Shown here piece by piece: positions 5,534-18,523 of a stretch of 64,000 nucleotides of DNA. Position 1 is the first letter of the stretch, and the number at the start of each line of letters is the position of its first letter. The stretch spans positions 124,001 to 188,000 of the forward strand of contig JADHVO010000007.1 of assembly GCA_016783965.1 (NCBI GenBank), in the 5' to 3' direction. Source of the DNA: Alphaproteobacteria bacterium. Lineage in GTDB: Bacteria; Pseudomonadota; Alphaproteobacteria; Micropepsales; Micropepsaceae. The notes below the pieces were generated by a model. It had not been told where the DNA came from. It was given only the letters and a program-made list of their open reading frames with translations, and ran no database searches. The position numbers were made by a program, and so were the translations under genes.

Positions 5534-6922
5534 CTAGTCCGGCTTGTAGGTCAGCTGGAAGCCGATGCAGTTGACGTAGAAGTCTGTGGTTCCGGTGAGC
5601 GTGCCACGCAGCGCCGCGCCGGGGATGGACGGATTCAGCGCGACCTTCACGGTCGGACTGAACAGGCGCGAATAGGTCAGGTTCACGTCGAACTGCTCGG
5701 TCATACGATAACGCACACCGGCTGACAGCCAGTAGCGCGTGGAATCCGGGATACGGGCTTCGCGGGTGGCGTCCGGCACGGGGCTCTGGTCGTAGGCCAC
5801 GCCGCCGCGGAACGTCCAGCGCGAGCTGGCATGGTACTCGGCGCCCACCGAGCCGAAGAAGGTGTCGCCCCAGTTCGCCGTCGTGACGTCCGGCGGCTGC
5901 GCCGGATTGGCAGCGGTGATCGTCAAGTTGCGGAAGCGGCCCCAGTGGAGCCAGTCTGCTTCGATCATGGCGGTCCAGTCGTTCGACAGTTGGTCGCGCA
6001 AACCGAAATTCAAGACGTCGGGCATCGGCAGTGGCGCAACAGCCCGCGTGTTCGTGAAGGCACCCGTCACTGCGCGGATCGTGGCGCCGACGCCGGCGCT
6101 GTCGAGCGTGAAGGTCAGCGGGCCTTTGAGGTCATGCTTGACCGTGGAGTGATACGCAACGCCCGCCGTCACCCTGTCGGTCAGCCGGACGATGGCGCCG
6201 GCGGTGAAACCGAAAGACCAGCTCTTCCCGCTGAGGCGCGCGAAGCTGTCCTGTGCGCCCGGAACCGACCCCGGAATGCCACTCACGGTGCCGAGCGTGC
6301 CTGTGTCGATTGCGCTGGTCAGCGTCGCTTGCGCGTATTCGACCTGAACTCCAGCACCCAGGGCGATGCGATCGGTCGGCTGCCAGGAAATCGTTGGCGT
6401 CGCATCGATGGTAAGCAACGCGCTCTTCATGCCGTAGTAGCGGCCGGCCCATCCAGGCTTGTAGTCGGTCCGCAGACCCCATGGCGCGTCGATCAATAGG
6501 CCGATTGCCCAGTGGTCCGACACCCGATGGCGCAGCGAGAAGGCAGGCACCAGGGCACCGCTGATGTATCCGCTCGGATTCGCGCCACCGCCGGTCGGCG
6601 TTCCGGCCGATGTCAGCGCCGTGGTGTAGCGACCGCGCGACCCCGGGAGGATCACAACGCTGCTGAGCGTGAAGTCCGTTTCCTTCACGCCCGCGAGCGC
6701 GGCGGGATTATAAGCGAGATAGCTGGCGTCGCTGTCGGTGGCCGCCGCGCCGGCGTATGCCGCGGACATGGCATCGGCGCTGTGCTCCTTGAGGCCGTAA
6801 CCGGCCGCGAATGCCGGTGCAGCCACCAAGGTAAATGAAACACTAATGGCGGCGGTCAGTTGGCGCACAAGACAACCCGAATCGGCAGCAGCAACATCGG
6901 ACGTTAGAGACTTCGGGCGCAT
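5534..6922 (-). CDS. FadL/OmpP1-family outer-membrane long-chain fatty acid transporter
   Basis: 462 residues. The N-terminal hydrophobic segment (LTAAISVSFTLVAAPAFA) is followed by AGYGLKEHSADAMSAAYAG and YLAYNPAAL, the FadL hatch signature in which the mature protein begins with a glycine-rich segment and an NPA motif. The rest alternates as expected for a 14-stranded beta barrel and ends with aromatic/hydrophobic residues (GFQLTYKPD). It would take up long-chain fatty acids or other hydrophobic compounds. The signal peptide starts some 20 residues in, so the true start may be internal to the one given. No fad genes adjoin it, although a thiolase lies near 61 kb. Confidence 0.87.
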   Translation of the reverse strand: MRPKSLTSDVAAADSGCLVRQLTAAISVSFTLVAAPAFAAGYGLKEHSADAMSAAYAGAAATDSDASYLAYNPAALAGVKETDFTLSSVVILPGSRGRYTTALTSAGTPTGGGANPSGYISGALVPAFSLRHRVSDHWAIGLLIDAPWGLRTDYKPGWAGRYYGMKSALLTIDATPTISWQPTDRIALGAGVQVEYAQATLTSAIDTGTLGTVSGIPGSVPGAQDSFARLSGKSWSFGFTAGAIVRLTDRVTAGVAYHSTVKHDLKGPLTFTLDSAGVGATIRAVTGAFTNTRAVAPLPMPDVLNFGLRDQLSNDWTAMIEADWLHWGRFRNLTITAANPAQPPDVTTANWGDTFFGSVGAEYHASSRWTFRGGVAYDQSPVPDATREARIPDSTRYWLSAGVRYRMTEQFDVNLTYSRLFSPTVKVALNPSIPGAALRGTLTGTTDFYVNCIGFQLTYKPD

Positions 6923-11621: not shown

Positions 11622-11897
11622 TTAGTGGGTGCCGCCCATGGTGTTTGTGTTCGCCGGGGCCATCGTATTGGCCGGAGCCATTGTGTTGGTGGGCGCCATG
11701 GCGCCGTTAGGTTTGTGCTCCGGCTTGTGCGGTGTCGGCTTGTGCGGTGCGGCCATCATGCCGCCGGACGCCGGCGCCATCATGCTGCCGCCCGATGCGG
11801 GCGCCATGCTGTTGTTTGTCGACATGCTGTCGGCCAGCGCGGCGCCGGTGAAGAGCGCGGTGCTGAGGGCGAAGGCGGCGACGATCTGCTTGTTCAT
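11622..11897 (-). CDS. Met-rich secreted low-complexity peptide (SigF regulon; MrpX-like)
   Basis: 91 residues. Residues 1-22 are a clear Sec signal peptide ending ALA. The mature part of about 69 residues is low-complexity (repeats of MAPAS, GGSMM, MAPAN and a HKP-rich patch) and contains ten methionines, about 14 percent. There are no cysteines and no fold signature. A GTAACC-N16-CGAA box on the same strand (11942-11967) lies about 45 bases upstream of the ATG. Similarity of context to the Azospira Met-rich peptide MrpX suggests a sacrificial methionine scavenger recycled by methionine sulfoxide reductases. The signal peptide and Met content are seen; the role is inferred. The histidines could instead point to metal binding. 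Confidence 0.8.
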   Translation of the reverse strand: MNKQIVAAFALSTALFTGAALADSMSTNNSMAPASGGSMMAPASGGMMAAPHKPTPHKPEHKPNGAMAPTNTMAPANTMAPANTNTMGGTH

Positions 11898-11941
11898 GGA
11901 ATTCCTCGTTCGGTTTGATGTGTCTACGTTGCGAGGGCGAG

Positions 11942-11967
11942 TTCGGATCGGACGTCGCGGCGGTTAC
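11942..11967 (-). promoter_or_regulatory. SigF-type promoter of the Met-rich peptide gene
   Basis: On the minus strand GTAACC (11967-11962) is followed by 16 bases and CGAA (11945-11942). Transcription would start near 11935, giving a leader of about 38 bases before ATG 11897. It is back-to-back with the sigF promoter, with 36 bases between the two GTAACC boxes. Confidence 0.75.
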
Positions 11968-12003
11968 ACGGAACCTACGGTTTGGCGCGCGCCTCACGGC
12001 GAT

Positions 12004-12029
12004 GTAACCTTTCGCATGCCTCGCGCGAA
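12004..12029 (+). promoter_or_regulatory. SigF-type promoter of sigF-nrsF (autoregulation)
   Basis: GTAACC (12004-12009), 16 bases, then CGAA (12026-12029) followed by T. The predicted start near 12036 gives a leader of about 15 bases before GTG 12052. It exactly matches the boxes upstream of msrA and the Met-rich gene, so sigF probably activates its own operon. Confidence 0.78.
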
Positions 12030-12051
12030 TTTGATCTCGAAGACGCCTTAA

Positions 12052-12588
12052 GTGATCGCTCAAGAGGAAGAGCTGAAGGCGCTGATGGTGCGCTCGCTTG
12101 CCGGTGACGGCGCCGCGTATGCGGGGCTGTTACGCAAGCTGCAGACGCATCTGCGCGCCTACTACCTCCGGCGGTTGGGGCGGGCAGCCGACGCGGAGGA
12201 TCTGCTTCAGGAAACATTGATCGCCATGCACAGCCGCCGCGCGACCTACGATCCTTCCCGCCCGTTCACCGCCTGGGTGCATGCGATCGCGCGCTACAAG
12301 CTGATCGATCATTTCCGCCGGACCAAACGGCGGGCCGAAGACCCGCTGGACGATCCGGACATCCTGTTCGGCTCGGAGGAGGCGAACGCGGCGGAGGCGC
12401 ATCTGGATGTCGAGCGGTTACTTCACAGGCTGCCCGCGAAAACGCAGAAGCTGATCCGTGATGTGAGGATCGACGGACTTTCGACCGCGGAGGCGGCGGC
12501 GAAGCACGGGCTGTCGGAGTCGGCGGTGAAGGTGGGCGTGCACCGTGGGCTGAAGACACTGGCCGGTCAGGTCGGGGACGACACATGA
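12052..12588 (+). CDS. sigF: ECF RNA polymerase sigma factor, SigF (ECF16) type
   Basis: 178 residues with sigma region 2 (DAEDLLQETLIAMHSRR, PFTAWVHAIARYKLIDHFRR) and region 4 helix-turn-helix (GLSTAEAAAKHGLSESAVK, GVHRGLKTL). The region 1/3 domains of housekeeping sigma factors are absent. It starts at GTG 12052, and its stop overlaps the nrsF start (ATGA). Pairing with a DUF1109 anti-sigma factor places it in the ECF16/SigF group, which in Caulobacter responds to chromium and cadmium and in Azospira to hypochlorite. The GTAACC-N16-CGAA box upstream suggests autoregulation. Four such boxes in this window define a probable local regulon. Confidence 0.9.
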   Translation: MIAQEEELKALMVRSLAGDGAAYAGLLRKLQTHLRAYYLRRLGRAADAEDLLQETLIAMHSRRATYDPSRPFTAWVHAIARYKLIDHFRRTKRRAEDPLDDPDILFGSEEANAAEAHLDVERLLHRLPAKTQKLIRDVRIDGLSTAEAAAKHGLSESAVKVGVHRGLKTLAGQVGDDT

Positions 12589-13226
12589 AGACCGACGATC
12601 TGATCTCCGCCCTTTCCACCGATCTCGAGCGCGCGCCCAGGCACGCGGTTGGCTTCCGGTTGTCGATCGCGTTGGCTGTTGGCATTGCGGTGTCCTTTGT
12701 TGCGATGTGGCTGTGGCTGGGGCCGCGGCCGGACATGATGCCGGCCATGGCGACACCCATGTTCTGGATGAAGCTCGTCTATGCGTTGTCGATCGCGGCG
12801 TTCGGTTTCGGCCTGGCCGACCGGCTGGCGCGGCCGGACGGGCAGGGCGGTGTGTGGCGCACGCTGCTGTTCCTGCCGCTCGCCTTCATGATCGTGATGG
12901 CGCTGTATCGCTATGTGCAGGCGCCGCCTGAGCAGCACATGGCGATGCTGCTGGGTGGTTCGTGGACGGTCTGCGCCCGCAATATCGTGCTGCTGTCGTT
13001 GCCGGTGTTTGCGGCGCTGTTCTGGAGCCTGCGTGACCTGGCGCCGACGCGATTGACGGCGGCGGGAGCCACGGCGGGCGTGCTGGCTGGTGCTGTCGGA
13101 ACGTTCATTTACGCGTTCCACTGCACCGAGAGCGCCGCGCCGTTCGTTGCTATCTGGTACACGCTGGGCATGGCGGTCATGGGTGCCTTGGGCGCAGTTC
13201 TGGGGCGGTTCCTGCTACGCTGGTGA
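12585..13226 (+). CDS. nrsF: NrsF (DUF1109) membrane anti-sigma factor
   Basis: 213 residues with a short cytoplasmic N-terminus and six hydrophobic segments, for example LSIALAVGIAVSFVAMWLWL, FLPLAFMIVMALY and GATAGVLAGAVGTFIYAF. It has only two cysteines, Cys130 and Cys180. These agree closely with the two conserved cysteines (131 and 181) that I recall as needed for Caulobacter NrsF to hold SigF in check. The membrane protein presumably binds SigF and releases it when the cysteines are modified. Its start overlaps the sigF stop, the usual arrangement for sigma/anti-sigma pairs. Confidence 0.9.
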   Translation: MKTDDLISALSTDLERAPRHAVGFRLSIALAVGIAVSFVAMWLWLGPRPDMMPAMATPMFWMKLVYALSIAAFGFGLADRLARPDGQGGVWRTLLFLPLAFMIVMALYRYVQAPPEQHMAMLLGGSWTVCARNIVLLSLPVFAALFWSLRDLAPTRLTAAGATAGVLAGAVGTFIYAFHCTESAAPFVAIWYTLGMAVMGALGAVLGRFLLRW

Positions 13227-13240
13227 TCGGCGGGCGGCAT

Positions 13241-13266
13241 GTAACCGTAGCGGCTCCGCGAACGAA
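13241..13266 (+). promoter_or_regulatory. SigF-type promoter of msrA
   Basis: GTAACC (13241-13246), 16 bases, CGAA (13263-13266) followed by T. It sits in the 66-base gap between nrsF and msrA. The predicted start near 13273 gives a leader of about 20 bases before ATG 13293. msrA can thus be expressed by SigF independently of read-through from nrsF. Confidence 0.8.
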
Positions 13267-13292
13267 TAGGTCTCGAAATGAGGAGACATCCC

Positions 13293-13982
13293 ATGCTTCA
13301 CAAAGTCCTCGCCACGTCCGCCATCGCGTTGATGTGCGGCCTGTCGTCGGCCTGTGCCGACGCCGTCAACAAGGCCATTCCAGCGGCCACCGTCGATGCG
13401 CCGAAGGCCCGCGCCCTGGCGAGCGAGACCGCAGTGCTGGCGGGGGGCTGCTTCTGGGGCATGCAGGGCGTGTTCGAACATGTTCGCGGCGTGAAGAAAG
13501 TCGTGGCCGGTTATTCCGGCGGCGCCGCGGCGACGGCGCATTACGAACTGGTGGGCACAGAGATGACCGGCCATGCCGAGTCCGTGCAGATCACGTTCGA
13601 TCCGCGCGTCGTCTCGTACGGCGAAATCCTGCGCGTTTATTTCTCGGTAGCGCACGATCCGACGGAGCTCGATCGTCAGGGGCCGGACAGCGGTTCGAGC
13701 TATCGCTCGGAGATATTCTTCACTTCGCCGATGCAGGAGAAGATCGCCAAGACTTACGTCGCGCAACTCGGTACCGCGCATGTCTTCGGTGACCCGATCG
13801 TGACGAAGATCGAGAAGCTCGACGGTTTCTACGCCGCGGAGGACTATCATCAGGACTACCTGATCCACAATCCGACCGCGCCCTACATTGTTTACAACGA
13901 CTTGCCGAAGATCGATGCCCTGAAGCGAGTATTCCCCACCATGTATCGGGATAAGCCCGTGATGCTGACGGCTGCCAGGTAG
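13293..13982 (+). CDS. msrA: Exported peptide methionine-S-sulfoxide reductase MsrA
   Basis: 229 residues from ATG 13293, which has AGGAGA eight bases upstream (ATG 13278 would overlap that site). A signal sequence (VLATSAIALMCGLSSACA) precedes the catalytic domain, so it acts in the periplasm, possibly lipid-anchored at Cys21 although the lipobox is imperfect. The active site is GGCFWG with nucleophile Cys53, followed by VVAGYSGG, the substrate-binding GSSYRSEIFF and the EDYHQDYL motif. No other cysteine occurs after Cys53, so the resolving cysteines of E. coli-type MsrA are absent and an external thiol must regenerate it. It repairs the S-diastereomer of methionine sulfoxide. SigF-type promoter upstream. 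Confidence 0.92.
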   Translation: MLHKVLATSAIALMCGLSSACADAVNKAIPAATVDAPKARALASETAVLAGGCFWGMQGVFEHVRGVKKVVAGYSGGAAATAHYELVGTEMTGHAESVQITFDPRVVSYGEILRVYFSVAHDPTELDRQGPDSGSSYRSEIFFTSPMQEKIAKTYVAQLGTAHVFGDPIVTKIEKLDGFYAAEDYHQDYLIHNPTAPYIVYNDLPKIDALKRVFPTMYRDKPVMLTAAR

Positions 13983-14048: not shown

Positions 14049-15257
14049 ATGGCGATAGAGGCGACAGTTCCGGCACCGCCGGGCGGTGTAGCGGGCGCAT
14101 CGGCCACACTGCTTGCCGACTATGCTGCCGTGCGCCGCCATAGCGAAGCTCTGGCGGCACCACTGAGCGTCGAAGACCAGAACATCCAGTCGATGCCCGA
14201 CGCGAGCCCGACCAAGTGGCATCTTGCGCACACGACGTGGTTTTTCGAGGCCGTAGTGCTGGCGAAGTTCGCGCCCAACTACGTGCCGTTTAATTCGGCC
14301 TATCATTTCCTGTTCAACTCCTACTACGAAGGTCTGGGGCCGCGGCACCCCCGGCCGCTGCGCGGGATGCTGAGCCGGCCGCCGATGAGCGACATCCTCG
14401 AATACCGGCTGCATGTCGACGAAGCGATGGCGCGGCTGATCGAAGAGAGGACCGCCGAGGTTGCACCGCTGGTGACGCTCGGTTTGCATCACGAGCAGCA
14501 GCACCAGGAGCTGATCCTTACCGATATCAAACATGCGTTGTCCCTCAACCCGCTGCTGCCGGCCTATGAACCGTGGAAGCCGTCGGCGCCGCGCGAGTGG
14601 GTGGCGCAGGAATGGCTGGAACATCGCGGCGGCATCGTACAGGTCGGCCATGCCGGCAACGGCTTCGCGTTCGACAACGAAGGTCCGCGTCATGGGGCGC
14701 TGCTGCGGCCGTTCAGCATCGCGGCGCGGCCGGTGACCAATGCCGAGTACCTGAGGTTCATCGAAGACGGCGGTTATCGCCGGCCCGAGTTCTGGCTGAG
14801 CGACGGCTGGGCCTTCGTGCAGCGCGAGCACCTCAACGCGCCCCTGTACTGGTTGCCCGAACAGGGGGAATGGCAAGTGTTCACGCTGCATGGCCCGTCT
14901 GCGCTTGAAGAGCATGCGCCGGTCTCCCATGTGAGCTTCTACGAGGCGGCGGCGTATGCCGCCTGGGAGGGCGCCCGCTTGCCCACCGAATTCGAATGGG
15001 AGGCGATGGCATCCAGGATGAACGGTCAGGGCGAGGTGTGGGAGTGGACACGGTCGTCCTACGACCCCTATCCCGGCTACCGGCCGTTCGACGGCGACGT
15101 CGTCGAATACAACGGCAAGTTCATGGTAGGGCAGCAGGTGCTGCGCGGCGGGTCCGTCGCGACGCCGCCCGGCCATATCCGTCCCACCTATCGCAATTTC
15201 TTTCCGCCCTCCGCGCGCTGGCAGTTCAGCGGCATCCGCCTCGCAGGTGATCTATGA
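14049..15257 (+). CDS. egtB: Ergothioneine biosynthesis sulfoxide synthase EgtB
   Basis: 402 residues. The N-terminal DinB-like domain supplies the iron-binding histidines, visible as WHLAHTTWFFE (His58/His61) and HHEQQHQE (His147-His152). The C-terminal formylglycine-generating-enzyme-like domain shows RPVTNAEYLRFIEDGGY, VSFYEAAAYAAWEGARLPTE (read in two parts), GEVWEWTRSSY and QVLRGGS, ending RNFFPPSARWQFSGIRLA. EgtB joins a sulfur donor to trimethylhistidine using iron and O2. It overlaps egtD by an ATGA junction, so the pair is coupled. egtA, egtC and egtE are not in the window. No SigF box precedes it, but it sits directly after msrA. Confidence 0.92.
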   Translation: MAIEATVPAPPGGVAGASATLLADYAAVRRHSEALAAPLSVEDQNIQSMPDASPTKWHLAHTTWFFEAVVLAKFAPNYVPFNSAYHFLFNSYYEGLGPRHPRPLRGMLSRPPMSDILEYRLHVDEAMARLIEERTAEVAPLVTLGLHHEQQHQELILTDIKHALSLNPLLPAYEPWKPSAPREWVAQEWLEHRGGIVQVGHAGNGFAFDNEGPRHGALLRPFSIAARPVTNAEYLRFIEDGGYRRPEFWLSDGWAFVQREHLNAPLYWLPEQGEWQVFTLHGPSALEEHAPVSHVSFYEAAAYAAWEGARLPTEFEWEAMASRMNGQGEVWEWTRSSYDPYPGYRPFDGDVVEYNGKFMVGQQVLRGGSVATPPGHIRPTYRNFFPPSARWQFSGIRLAGDL

Positions 15258-16213
15258 GCCCAGCCGCCATCGCCATCCTGGAGCGCGCACGCCGGAGCGA
15301 ATTCGCTTCGGCGCTGATCGAGGGCCTGTCGCACGCGCAGAAGCGCACGCCCGCCAAGTTCTTCTACGACGCCGCCGGATCGGCGCTGTTCGAGGAGATC
15401 ACGGAGCTGCCGGAGTACTATCCGACGCGCATCGAGCTTTCGATCCTGCGCGACAACGCCGCCGACATCGCGTCGTTCATCGGCAGCAACGCGCAGTTGG
15501 TCGAATTCGGCGCCGGCGCACTGCGCAAGGTGCGCATCCTGTTCGATGCCATGACGAAGCCGCGCGGCTATGTGCCGATCGACATTTCGGGCGACTTCCT
15601 GCTCCGGGTCGCGGAGACGCTGGAGGCCGAGTATCCGCATGTCTGCGTCAACCCGGTGGTGGCTGACTTTACGCAGCCGATCCAGCTCGGGCCGCTGGAG
15701 TGCTCGGCCATGCATCGCGTCGGGTTCTTCCCCGGCTCGACCATCGGCAATTTCACGCGCGCCGAGGCGGTGTCGTTCCTGAAGAGCGCGCGGCAGACGC
15801 TGGACAACGGACCGCTGCTGATCGGCGTCGACCTGGTGAAAGACCCGGCGATCCTGCACGCCGCATACAACGACGCGGGGGGCGTGACGGCGGCGTTCAA
15901 CAAGAACCTGCTGGCGCGCGCCAACCGCGAGCTGGATGCCAGTTTCGATGTCGGCGCGTTCGACCACTATGCGCCGTACAATCCGGTGTCGCAGCGGGTC
16001 GAAATGTACCTGATCGCCAGATCGCGCCAGCGCGTGCGGCTGGCGGGTCAGACCGTCAGCTTCGCGCAGGGTGAAGCAATTCATACCGAGGACTCCCATA
16101 AGTACACGCTGGAGAGCTTCCGCGCGCTGGCAGCGGAAGCGGGCTATGCCCAGCGCAAGGTGTGGACCGACGCCGGCGCGTTGTTCAGCGTTCAGTGGCT
16201 TGAGGCCGCCTAG
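15254..16213 (+). CDS. egtD: L-histidine N-alpha-methyltransferase EgtD
   Basis: 319 residues, the usual EgtD length. It shows the family signatures KFFYDAAGSALFEEITELPEYYPTR (read in pieces), LVEFGAGALRKVRILFDAM as the SAM-binding glycine motif, VPIDISGDFL, and FFPGSTIGNFTRAEA. The Arg of YYPTR and the following region bind the histidine substrate. It makes hercynine (trimethylhistidine), the EgtB substrate. The start at 15254 overlaps the egtB stop. It is convergent with the alpha/beta hydrolase, stops overlapping by four bases. Confidence 0.93.
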   Translation: MSPAAIAILERARRSEFASALIEGLSHAQKRTPAKFFYDAAGSALFEEITELPEYYPTRIELSILRDNAADIASFIGSNAQLVEFGAGALRKVRILFDAMTKPRGYVPIDISGDFLLRVAETLEAEYPHVCVNPVVADFTQPIQLGPLECSAMHRVGFFPGSTIGNFTRAEAVSFLKSARQTLDNGPLLIGVDLVKDPAILHAAYNDAGGVTAAFNKNLLARANRELDASFDVGAFDHYAPYNPVSQRVEMYLIARSRQRVRLAGQTVSFAQGEAIHTEDSHKYTLESFRALAAEAGYAQRKVWTDAGALFSVQWLEAA

Positions 16214-17405: not shown

Positions 17406-17876
17406 CTACGCCGGTTTGAATTTCAGCGCGAGGCCGTCCATGCAGTAGCGCAGGCCGGTGGGCTTGGGGCCATCGTCGAAGACATGGCCGAGATGCCCGC
17501 CGCAGCGGCGGCAGTGCACTTCCGTACGCTCCATCATCATGCTGCTGTCGCTCGCCGTCTCGACCGCGTTGGGAAGGGCCTGCCAGAAGCTGGGCCAGCC
17601 GGTGCCGCTCTCGAACTTGGTGTCGGACGAGAACAGCGCCAGCTCGCAGCCGGCGCACAGAAACGTGCCCTTGCGGTGCTCATTCAGGAGCGGGCTGGTG
17701 AACGGGTACTCGGTACCCTGTTCGCGCATGATGTGATACGCGGCGGGGCCGAGGAGCTTCTTCCACTCGTCGGGGGTGTGGGTGACCTCAAAGGTCTTGG
17801 CCGGGGCGGGCGAGCAGCCCGCCACCAGCGCAGTACCGCCGATCAGGAGCGATTGGATCGCGGTTCGTCTGTTCAT
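17406..17876 (-). CDS. msrB: Exported peptide methionine-R-sulfoxide reductase MsrB (Tat-type lipoprotein signal)
   Basis: 156 residues. The N-terminus has a twin arginine (NRRTAIQ) and a perfect lipobox LVAGC with Cys21, predicting an exported lipoprotein. The zinc site is CAGC (74-77) and CRRC (122-125), and the nucleophile is Cys145 in GLRYCMDGLALKF. Where E. coli MsrB has SGCGWPSF this has SGTGWPSF (Thr92), so the usual resolving cysteine is missing. It reduces the R-diastereomer, complementing the exported MsrA. Its start overlaps the stop of the CMD-family gene (ATGA), and it is downstream of a SigF-type box at 18542-18567. Confidence 0.93.
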   Translation of the reverse strand: MNRRTAIQSLLIGGTALVAGCSPAPAKTFEVTHTPDEWKKLLGPAAYHIMREQGTEYPFTSPLLNEHRKGTFLCAGCELALFSSDTKFESGTGWPSFWQALPNAVETASDSSMMMERTEVHCRRCGGHLGHVFDDGPKPTGLRYCMDGLALKFKPA

Positions 17877-18523
17877 TCTCTCTTCTTCTCCGTATCGACC
17901 ATTCGCATCACGTCGTTGTTCGCCGTGTTGCCGGTGGGTGCAGCCACTTCGACGATACGGTCGTCCACGTCGTCGTATTCCAGGCGGAGCGCCTTCGAGA
18001 TCATCGCGTGCATGTCGTACATGCCCACGATGTAGGTAAGCTCCATGATCTCTTCGTCAGACAGGTGTTTCTTGAGTGCGGCGAACACGCCTTCCGCCAC
18101 GCGGCCGCCCTGGATGACCATGCCGTCGGTGTAGGCGAGCACGGCGCGCTCGACCGGGCTGTAGCAATCGGCGACCTGCCAATGCGGAATGGATTGGATC
18201 TGCTCCTCGGTGAGGCCGACGCCGCGCGAGGCCTTGCAGTGCTGCGAGAACACGAACTGGCTGCCGCGGCCCCAGCCGGCGCGGGTCTGGCCGAGCTCGC
18301 GCAGCCTGGGGCTGAGCTTGCGCTTGCCGCGGTAGTACTGAAAGCCGGCGACGGCGTGGTCGAAAGCGTCGGGCGAAACAGCGAAGACGGTCCACCAATT
18401 GCCGGGCGTGCCGGTGTCGGTGCCGGGCTCCACGACCGGGTCGCGGCCCTTGAACAGCATCTTGTAGATCGCCTGGGCATTGGGATGCGCTTCGTCTCTG
18501 CCGACCTGTTTCAGTCTGGGCAT
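17873..18523 (-). CDS. Carboxymuconolactone decarboxylase (CMD)-family protein
   Basis: 216 residues with the all-helical CMD/AhpD-type fold. Visible are LRELGQTRAGWGRGSQFVFS, the helix YSPVERAVLAYTDGMV, and LSDEEIMELTYIVGMYDMHAM. The redox CxxC motif of AhpD is absent; only a single cysteine occurs at that site (SQHCKAS). Peroxidase-reductase activity is therefore unlikely and function is open. The strong ribosome site AAGGAGGAG lies just upstream. A SigF-type box ends about 19 bases before the ATG, so CMD and msrB probably form a SigF-inducible transcript inside the longer operon. Confidence 0.8.
   Translation of the reverse strand: MPRLKQVGRDEAHPNAQAIYKMLFKGRDPVVEPGTDTGTPGNWWTVFAVSPDAFDHAVAGFQYYRGKRKLSPRLRELGQTRAGWGRGSQFVFSQHCKASRGVGLTEEQIQSIPHWQVADCYSPVERAVLAYTDGMVIQGGRVAEGVFAALKKHLSDEEIMELTYIVGMYDMHAMISKALRLEYDDVDDRIVEVAAPTGNTANNDVMRMVDTEKKRE

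Follow-up and report, generated by a model that had tools for sequence, protein, structure and literature searches.

Why should a bacterium encode, divergently from the gene of an ECF sigma factor, a short exported peptide in which about every seventh residue is a methionine? This question is raised by a gene lying at positions 11622-11897 of the window, as we call the whole stretch of 64,000 nucleotides that was analysed. An earlier note had read its product as a sacrificial oxidant sink, with metal binding as the alternative; the coordinates that it gave are correct, and to them we add the strand, which is the minus strand. The evidence presented here makes it likely that the peptide acts in the periplasm as a sacrificial sink of methionines, in the manner of MrpX. 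The gene was characterized as follows:

11622..11897, minus strand: Met-rich secreted peptide (MrpX-like) of 91 aa, from the ORF translation, with position and composition recurring in relatives

The ORF starts with ATG and the N terminus of its product is MNKQIVAAFALSTALFTGAALA, after which 69 residues follow, ending in His. The signal peptide comprises approximately residues 1-22, with the cleavage site placed by eye between GAALA and DS (signal peptides were called by a heuristic based on hydropathy and cleavage motifs). The mature peptide of 69 residues contains 10 Met (14.5%), 4 His and no Cys, shows the repeats MAPAS (twice), MAPTN and MAPAN (twice) and includes an HKP patch, HKPTPHKPEHKP; the translation thus bears out the composition and the MAPAN/MAPAS-like repeats described before. 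Given the 2.6% Met of 11 neighbouring proteins, at least 10 Met in 69 residues has a P of ~1e-5, and among the 10 short hydrophilic signal-peptide-like ORFs of the window (a heuristic selection) this one has the highest Met content, the runner-up having 7%. The AlphaFold2 model (mean pLDDT 56, pTM 0.13, no secondary structure) agrees with the absence of a fold claimed by the earlier note and is consistent with a disordered peptide, but a six-row alignment is by itself enough to depress the confidence of the model. An overlapping ORF at 11629-12051 (+) was set aside, as nothing in the analysis supports it.

The divergent orientation with respect to sigF was also confirmed, the sigF-nrsF pair being located at 12052..13226 (+). 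The surrounding genes and predicted promoters are:

11942..11968, minus strand: ECF16/sigma-F-type promoter of the peptide gene, TGTAACC-N16-CGAA, exact pattern match
12003..12029, plus strand: sigma-F-type promoter of sigF-nrsF, exact pattern match
12052..12588, plus strand: sigF, ECF sigma factor of 178 aa, profile matches
12585..13226, plus strand: nrsF, anti-sigma-F membrane protein, PF06532 at 245.7 bits (cut-off 26.8)
13240..13266, plus strand: sigma-F-type promoter of msrA-egtB-egtD, exact pattern match
13278..13982, plus strand: exported MsrA (predicted), profile matches and translation
14049..15257, plus strand: egtB, ergothioneine biosynthesis, TIGR03440 at 538.6 bits (cut-off 360)
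15254..16213, plus strand: egtD, histidine N-alpha-methyltransferase, TIGR03438 at 391.3 bits (cut-off 290.9)
17406..17876, minus strand: MsrB with a lipoprotein-type signal, LVAGC (by eye), profile matches and translation
17873..18523, minus strand: carboxymuconolactone decarboxylase / AhpD-like protein, PF02627
18542..18568, minus strand: sigma-F-type promoter of the AhpD-like gene and msrB, exact pattern match

The window NrsF stays below the cut-off of the stricter NCBIfam equivalog NF042994 (168.6 bits against 300), and 13 aligned NrsF proteins all have C130, nearly all of them C180 as well. The true start of msrA is probably 13293, judged by the ribosome-binding site, and by inspection its signal is either of the Sec type or of an atypical lipoprotein type. 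The window MsrA has no Cys C-terminal to the catalytic GCFWG, and the same holds past GCFW for 6 of 7 MsrA proteins of other loci, the one of L114 having one; such a Cys-free tail is present in MsrA of L069, L070, L071, L072 and L074, and the gene order msrA-egtB-egtD is also found in L069, L070, L072 and L074. As msrB overlaps the end of the AhpD-like gene by 4 bases, it was taken as the second gene of an operon. Further copies of msrA and msrB exist in the genome.

The peptide promoter is placed 44 bases upstream of the ATG, with a GAGGA ribosome-binding site in between. The ECF16 consensus is given as TGTAAC-N17-CGAA in PMC8315932 and as GTAACC-N16-CGAA in PMC3511200, and the window holds 4 exact sites of the form TGTAACC-N15-18-CGAA, against 0.02 expected from shuffling. 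The promoter type shared with exported MsrA and MsrB, on which the earlier note had relied, is therefore real, all the sites being exact, with the correction that the site of msrB precedes the upstream AhpD-like gene. Across the genome the looser TGTAACC-N15-18-CGAA pattern occurs 8 times (5 in a reverse-read control) and the fixed-spacing TGTAAC-N17-CGAA 6 times in 4.29 Mb (3 in the backward-read control), so that number alone indicates no enrichment and it is placement that carries weight: 5 of the 6 fixed-spacing sites lie 11-44 bases 5' of an ORF, namely those of the peptide, sigF, msrA, AhpD-like/msrB and cytochrome b/YedY-like genes. The last of these sites (in L128) is 19 bases 5' of a cytochrome b561 gene that is followed by an Oxidored_molyb gene, a YedYZ-like pair unlinked to the window locus that resembles the pair found in Phyllobacterium MXKDX-peptide loci. 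Neither of the 2 PF00174 proteins of the genome reaches the cut-off of 207 bits for MsrP proper (NF003767), with 69.2 and 102.4 bits; the second value belongs to the L128 molybdoenzyme, a PF00174 protein like those of the MXKDX-peptide loci. The sixth match (in L003) sits in a repeat-like intergenic stretch and was discarded as a probable chance site. Judging from these sites, the predicted sigma-F regulon appears to consist mostly of Met-sulfoxide repair genes, ergothioneine synthesis included, and sigF-nrsF is expected to be autoregulated through its own site.

We then surveyed sigF-nrsF loci. A search of 101 genomes for NrsF was positive in 51 of them (above cut-off in 49), from which 56 stretches were taken; to these we added 80 named loci from a SigF scan, the top 80 of 575, a choice that favours window-like sigF. 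From the 136 loci, 15 in which both genes were not recognised (BLAST/HMM), 10 with a duplicate sigF and 10 with a short upstream region were dropped stepwise, leaving successively 121, 111 with distinct sigF and finally 101 with at least 1200 bases upstream. The first 15 include the BufB loci L107, L118, L119, L120, L123 and L124 and the Met-peptide loci L108, L117 and L129, and none of these nine has both features together; several dropped loci have a Pfam-visible NrsF that was missed, BLAST having been the sole search applied to the first 56 stretches. A peptide was counted when it was secreted, hydrophilic, of at least 8% Met and divergent from sigF within 1.7 kb. The 34 distinct peptides analysed for composition were drawn from all 121 loci, and the window was excluded from all survey counts.

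A synteny search beside sigF/nrsF had been named by the earlier note as a check on its proposal, and it revealed a divergent Met-rich signal-peptide ORF (at the 8% floor) in 32 of the 101 distinct loci. When duplicate sigF genes were kept, the peptide was present at 36/110 loci versus 3/416 strand-windows more than 3 kb away, although these loci are not independent. The sequence types are diverse (MAPAN, MSxS, MSSDHM, MxKDx), and the proposal had been staked on relatives conserving Met rather than the His/Lys/Pro part. Met is indeed steady, making up 8.5-20% of the mature part with a CV of 0.14 (34 peptides, with the 8% floor in their selection), whereas His is variable (CV 1.15, absent in 10/34); the CV of Lys is 0.49, and Cys is absent in 23/34. 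In 12 disjoint aligned pairs, from which L201, a peptide that looks unlike the others, was excluded, Met was conserved at 254 of 301 positions (84%) versus 1068 of 1544 for other residues, with Lys at 82% and His at 75%; among 11 residue types Met was the best kept after Cys (89%, 18 positions). A consensus-like site was found within 200 bases 5' of the peptide start in 11/34 (exact) or 16/34 (relaxed) cases, compared with 20/1700 and 33/1700 random stretches of the same loci, and 18/34 peptide genes have no consensus-like site in those 200 bases.

Other features of these loci are worth describing. Lys-rich patches are common among the 34 sigF-divergent peptides, and a C-terminal His is present in 16 of them as well as in the window peptide, by eye in types other than MXKDX. 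In the close relatives L070 and L074 no such peptide accompanies the sigF-nrsF-msrA-egtBD cluster, and L070 retains a divergent promoter-like site despite the missing peptide. Met-rich secreted peptides also occur about 6 kb from sigF at L082:2039-2383 (-), 245 bases from a YedY-like gene, and at L112:17196-17513 (+), a locus that has a YedY-like gene too and a second peptide adjoining sigF.

The peptide is found in the company of Met sulfoxide reductase genes. An Msr gene (MsrA, MsrB or YedY-like) is present in the flank of 18 of the 32 peptide loci versus 7 of the 69 others (Fisher 1.7e-6), and BufB in 0/32 versus 16/69 (p 0.0022), the strength of both associations being inflated by the relatedness of the loci; peptide and BufB occur together in none of the 101. 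After collapsing sigF at 75% identity, the figures were 7/12 versus 5/38 for Msr (p 0.0036) and 0/12 versus 15/38 for BufB (p 0.0099), and clustering at 65% gave p values of 0.028 and 0.063, respectively. In 14 of the 32 peptide loci there is no Msr gene in the flank examined.

Family models do not recognise the window peptide: Pfam gave no match, NCBIfam only chance-level ones, and TIGR02953 (MXKDX repeat, cut-off 41 bits) none up to E 1. That model is passed by 5 of the 6 MXKDX-looking sigF-divergent peptides (three from Phyllobacterium, one from Hyphomicrobiaceae L136 and one from Chelatococcus), the one from Hyphomicrobium L141 remaining under the cut-off with 37.6 bits. Three peptides that are not of the MXKDX type score 22.7 (L129), 32.4 (L133) and 19.8 bits (L160), and the window peptide aligns with those of L129 (54% identity) and L133 (38%). 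This graded series of scores suggests that the peptides may form a single drifting family. When the peptide itself was used as query against the 101 genomes, only two convincing relatives appeared outside its own genome (G029 and G050); the remaining matches had E above 0.001 and looked compositional, and a true relative (G022, E 0.29) was among them. Anchoring on NrsF/SigF outperformed the peptide query for finding relatives.

The closest parallel is the MrpX / YedYZ / SigF-NrsF system of Azospira suillum PS, reportedly described by Melnyk et al. in 2015. That system likewise has genes for Met sulfoxide reductase alongside sigF/nrsF and a secreted Met-rich peptide (PMC4623255, PMC8315932). 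MrpX goes through a cycle of oxidation and reduction, and two other perchlorate islands carry msrA and msrB genes whose products are predicted to be exported (PMC4623255). In the window we find a short, predicted exported, Met-rich and Cys-free peptide, adjacent to sigF and an NrsF-family anti-sigma gene and preceded by the ECF16 consensus, and predicted periplasmic Met sulfoxide reductases behind like sites. It differs from the MrpX system in its MAPAN/MAPAS repeats, in the msrA and msrB genes near sigF, in the ergothioneine genes behind msrA and in the YedYZ-like pair, which is unlinked and has a promoter-like site.

Brucella melitensis has a second comparable system, in which BcrX and BcrS/AbcS share with our locus a sigma factor of ECF16 type (a putative assignment for the window gene) with an NrsF-family anti-sigma, the Met-rich peptide adjoining the sigma gene and the consensus (T/C)GTAAC-N17-CGAA, together with a hypochlorous acid theme, as bcrXQP is induced by HOCl and contributes to HOCl resistance (PMC8315932). 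BcrX belongs to the MXKDX repeat proteins and its gene shares a transcript with msrQP (PMC8315932), whereas no msrPQ-like genes follow the window peptide gene; proteins with the TIGR02953 pentapeptide occupy the same sigF-divergent position, with the window peptide falling outside the model. In Bradyrhizobium japonicum, the ECF16 pair EcfF/OsrA controls three predicted Met sulfoxide reductase genes, and Cys-129 and Cys-179 of OsrA correspond in position to the conserved cysteines of NrsF; no Met-rich peptide is named in the available text of that article (PMC3420878). Bufferin (BufA/BufB) loci likewise combine a sigma/anti-sigma pair of this kind with exported peptides rich in sulfur, but bufferins are Cys-based and depend on an MNIO maturase (PMC12452194), and the BufB of this genome sits at another sigF-nrsF locus, which separates the peptide from bufferin/MNIO RiPPs.

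The sink reading is thus probably right and not novel, the mechanism being published for MrpX and BcrX (PMC4623255, PMC8315932), and exported MsrA and MsrB alongside MrpX function are already published too (PMC4623255). What is apparently new is the MAPAN-type sequence, the presence of ergothioneine genes behind msrA in one operon and, as described below, a mirror peptide with Cys repeats; among the open-access papers searched, we found none joining nrsF or ECF16 with ergothioneine.

From the sequence, the promoter sites, the genes behind them, the conservation of Met and the Msr association, all of them directly observed, we infer the inducing oxidant, the sensing step, the use of the sites by SigF, the oxidation of Met and its enzymatic reduction in the following cycle. 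An oxidant in the envelope, probably hypochlorous acid or a relative, would inactivate NrsF, likely through its conserved cysteines, and so release SigF. SigF would then transcribe the genes of the peptide, exported MsrA, lipoprotein MsrB, the YedY/YedZ-like pair, the AhpD-like protein and ergothioneine synthesis. The methionines of the unfolded peptide would react quickly with the oxidant, and would be re-reduced by MsrA and MsrB (for the S and R sulfoxides), by the YedY-like enzyme or by both routes, closing the cycle. For OsrA there is support for cysteine-based sensing (PMC3420878), AbcS is reported to be cleaved under HOCl (PMC10151825), and the sigma-F regulon of Caulobacter includes a YedY gene (PMC3511200). 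Against the sink reading, chromate and cadmium elicited a response from the Caulobacter sigma-F targets that were tested, whereas peroxides, paraquat and diamide did not, and hypochlorite does not figure in the available text (PMC3511200). The 14 peptide loci lacking a flanking Msr gene, the 18 peptide genes lacking a nearby site, the clusters of L070 and L074, the near-equal conservation of Lys and the weaker associations under coarse sigF clustering also weigh against it. With Met-repair genes lying behind predicted promoters, Met conserved and Msr genes enriched around the peptide, the sacrificial oxidant sink of the earlier note is nevertheless well supported, its oxidation and recycling steps being the conditional part.

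The metal response of Caulobacter sigma-F also fits a different function, in which the peptide would bind Cu(I)/Ag(I) in the periplasm through Met and His ligands and the Msr genes would be co-regulated with it because copper oxidises Met. The HKP patch, on which the earlier note had based its metal-binding alternative, is real, and the C-terminal His of the window peptide is shared by 16/34 related ones; moreover, an article about repair by Msr during copper stress has the copper chaperone CusF at its centre (PMC9302797), so the Msr company alone cannot exclude a role in copper. However, His is missing from 10/34 peptides, and the spacing of Met is not that of Mets-motif copper proteins: neither MxM nor MxxM occurs in the window peptide, and among the 34 relatives the commonest Met-to-Met distance is 5 (178/395 gaps), with distances of 2 or 3 in only 41/395. 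The bufferin genes, besides, are at a separate sigF-nrsF locus, and peptide and BufB coincide in 0/101 loci, BufB being absent from the flanks of all 32 peptide loci. Copper or silver binding was accordingly rejected as the main role, and we consider it unlikely.

The adjacency to sigF-nrsF in 32/101 loci could also mean that the oxidised peptide is a redox signal, reporting the oxidation of Met in the envelope to NrsF or another sensor and tuning the regulon, and Met-rich periplasmic loops have been proposed as the sensing element of OsrA (PMC3420878). Yet at the other 69 loci there is no such peptide within 1.7 kb (by our heuristic), so that NrsF is seemingly independent of it, and the conservation of composition rather than sequence fits a bulk reactant better than a ligand; a signalling role is therefore very improbable. 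We give hardly any credit to the peptide being an unrelated low-complexity envelope or secreted protein (a charge-bearing spacer, storage or adhesion) with incidental Met: Lys is kept almost as well as Met in the disjoint pairs (82% versus 84%), but its CV is 0.49 against 0.14 for Met (under the 8% selection floor), and Met repair genes make up much of the predicted regulon. The preferred reading remains that of a sacrificial methionine sink.

Finally, L107, a second sigF-nrsF locus in the same genome, contains bufA (DUF2282), bufB, a DUF2063 gene, a DoxX/HvfX-like gene and a further exported peptide with NPCAGKP-type Cys repeats, an HHHHH patch and a C-terminal His, which has no Pfam or NCBIfam match. 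Peptides of this (NPCAAK)n-like type were found in 4 of 22 bufferin loci, all four from this genus, in each case beside sigF/bufferin genes:

L107:8814-9104, plus strand: NPCAAK-type exported peptide
L120:9242-9544, plus strand, and 6072-6437, minus strand: NPCAAK-type exported peptides
L123:8743-9048, plus strand: NPCAAK-type exported peptide
L124:8953-9138, plus strand, and 6066-6359, minus strand: NPCAAK-type exported peptides

Five of these six peptides end in His and 3/6 have a basic or His-rich middle. On sequence grounds, the L107 peptide resembles a Cys-based mirror image of the Met peptide, and members of both types have a C-terminal His and often a basic or His-rich middle. Adjoining this locus, L107:9630-10763 (+) encodes a DsbD-like membrane protein and a thioredoxin-like protein whose N terminus is signal-like; both score under NCBIfam cut-offs and are possible suppliers of periplasmic reductant for MsrA/MsrB. 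As a tentative and rather doubtful extension, the genus may run two matched sulfur buffers, both of them exported, unfolded peptides under a sigF/NrsF pair of their own. The Met type (MAPAN) would deal with oxidants, with MsrA, MsrB and YedYZ-like enzymes to recharge it and ergothioneine as a backup, while the Cys type (NPCAAK), encoded at the bufferin locus, would deal with copper; on this view a single scaffold may have been adapted to both Met and Cys chemistry.

All these data extend the MrpX principle to a peptide that is invisible to the family models searched, and provide a sequence-independent recipe for finding others (a signal peptide, high Met, hydrophilic character and divergence from sigF). 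From a single genome they predict a compact sigma-F regulon that is seemingly devoted for the most part to Met oxidation and repair, ergothioneine synthesis included. Furthermore, the presence of Met and Cys peptides at paralogous sigF loci would make the buffering of oxidants and of metals comparable in one organism.
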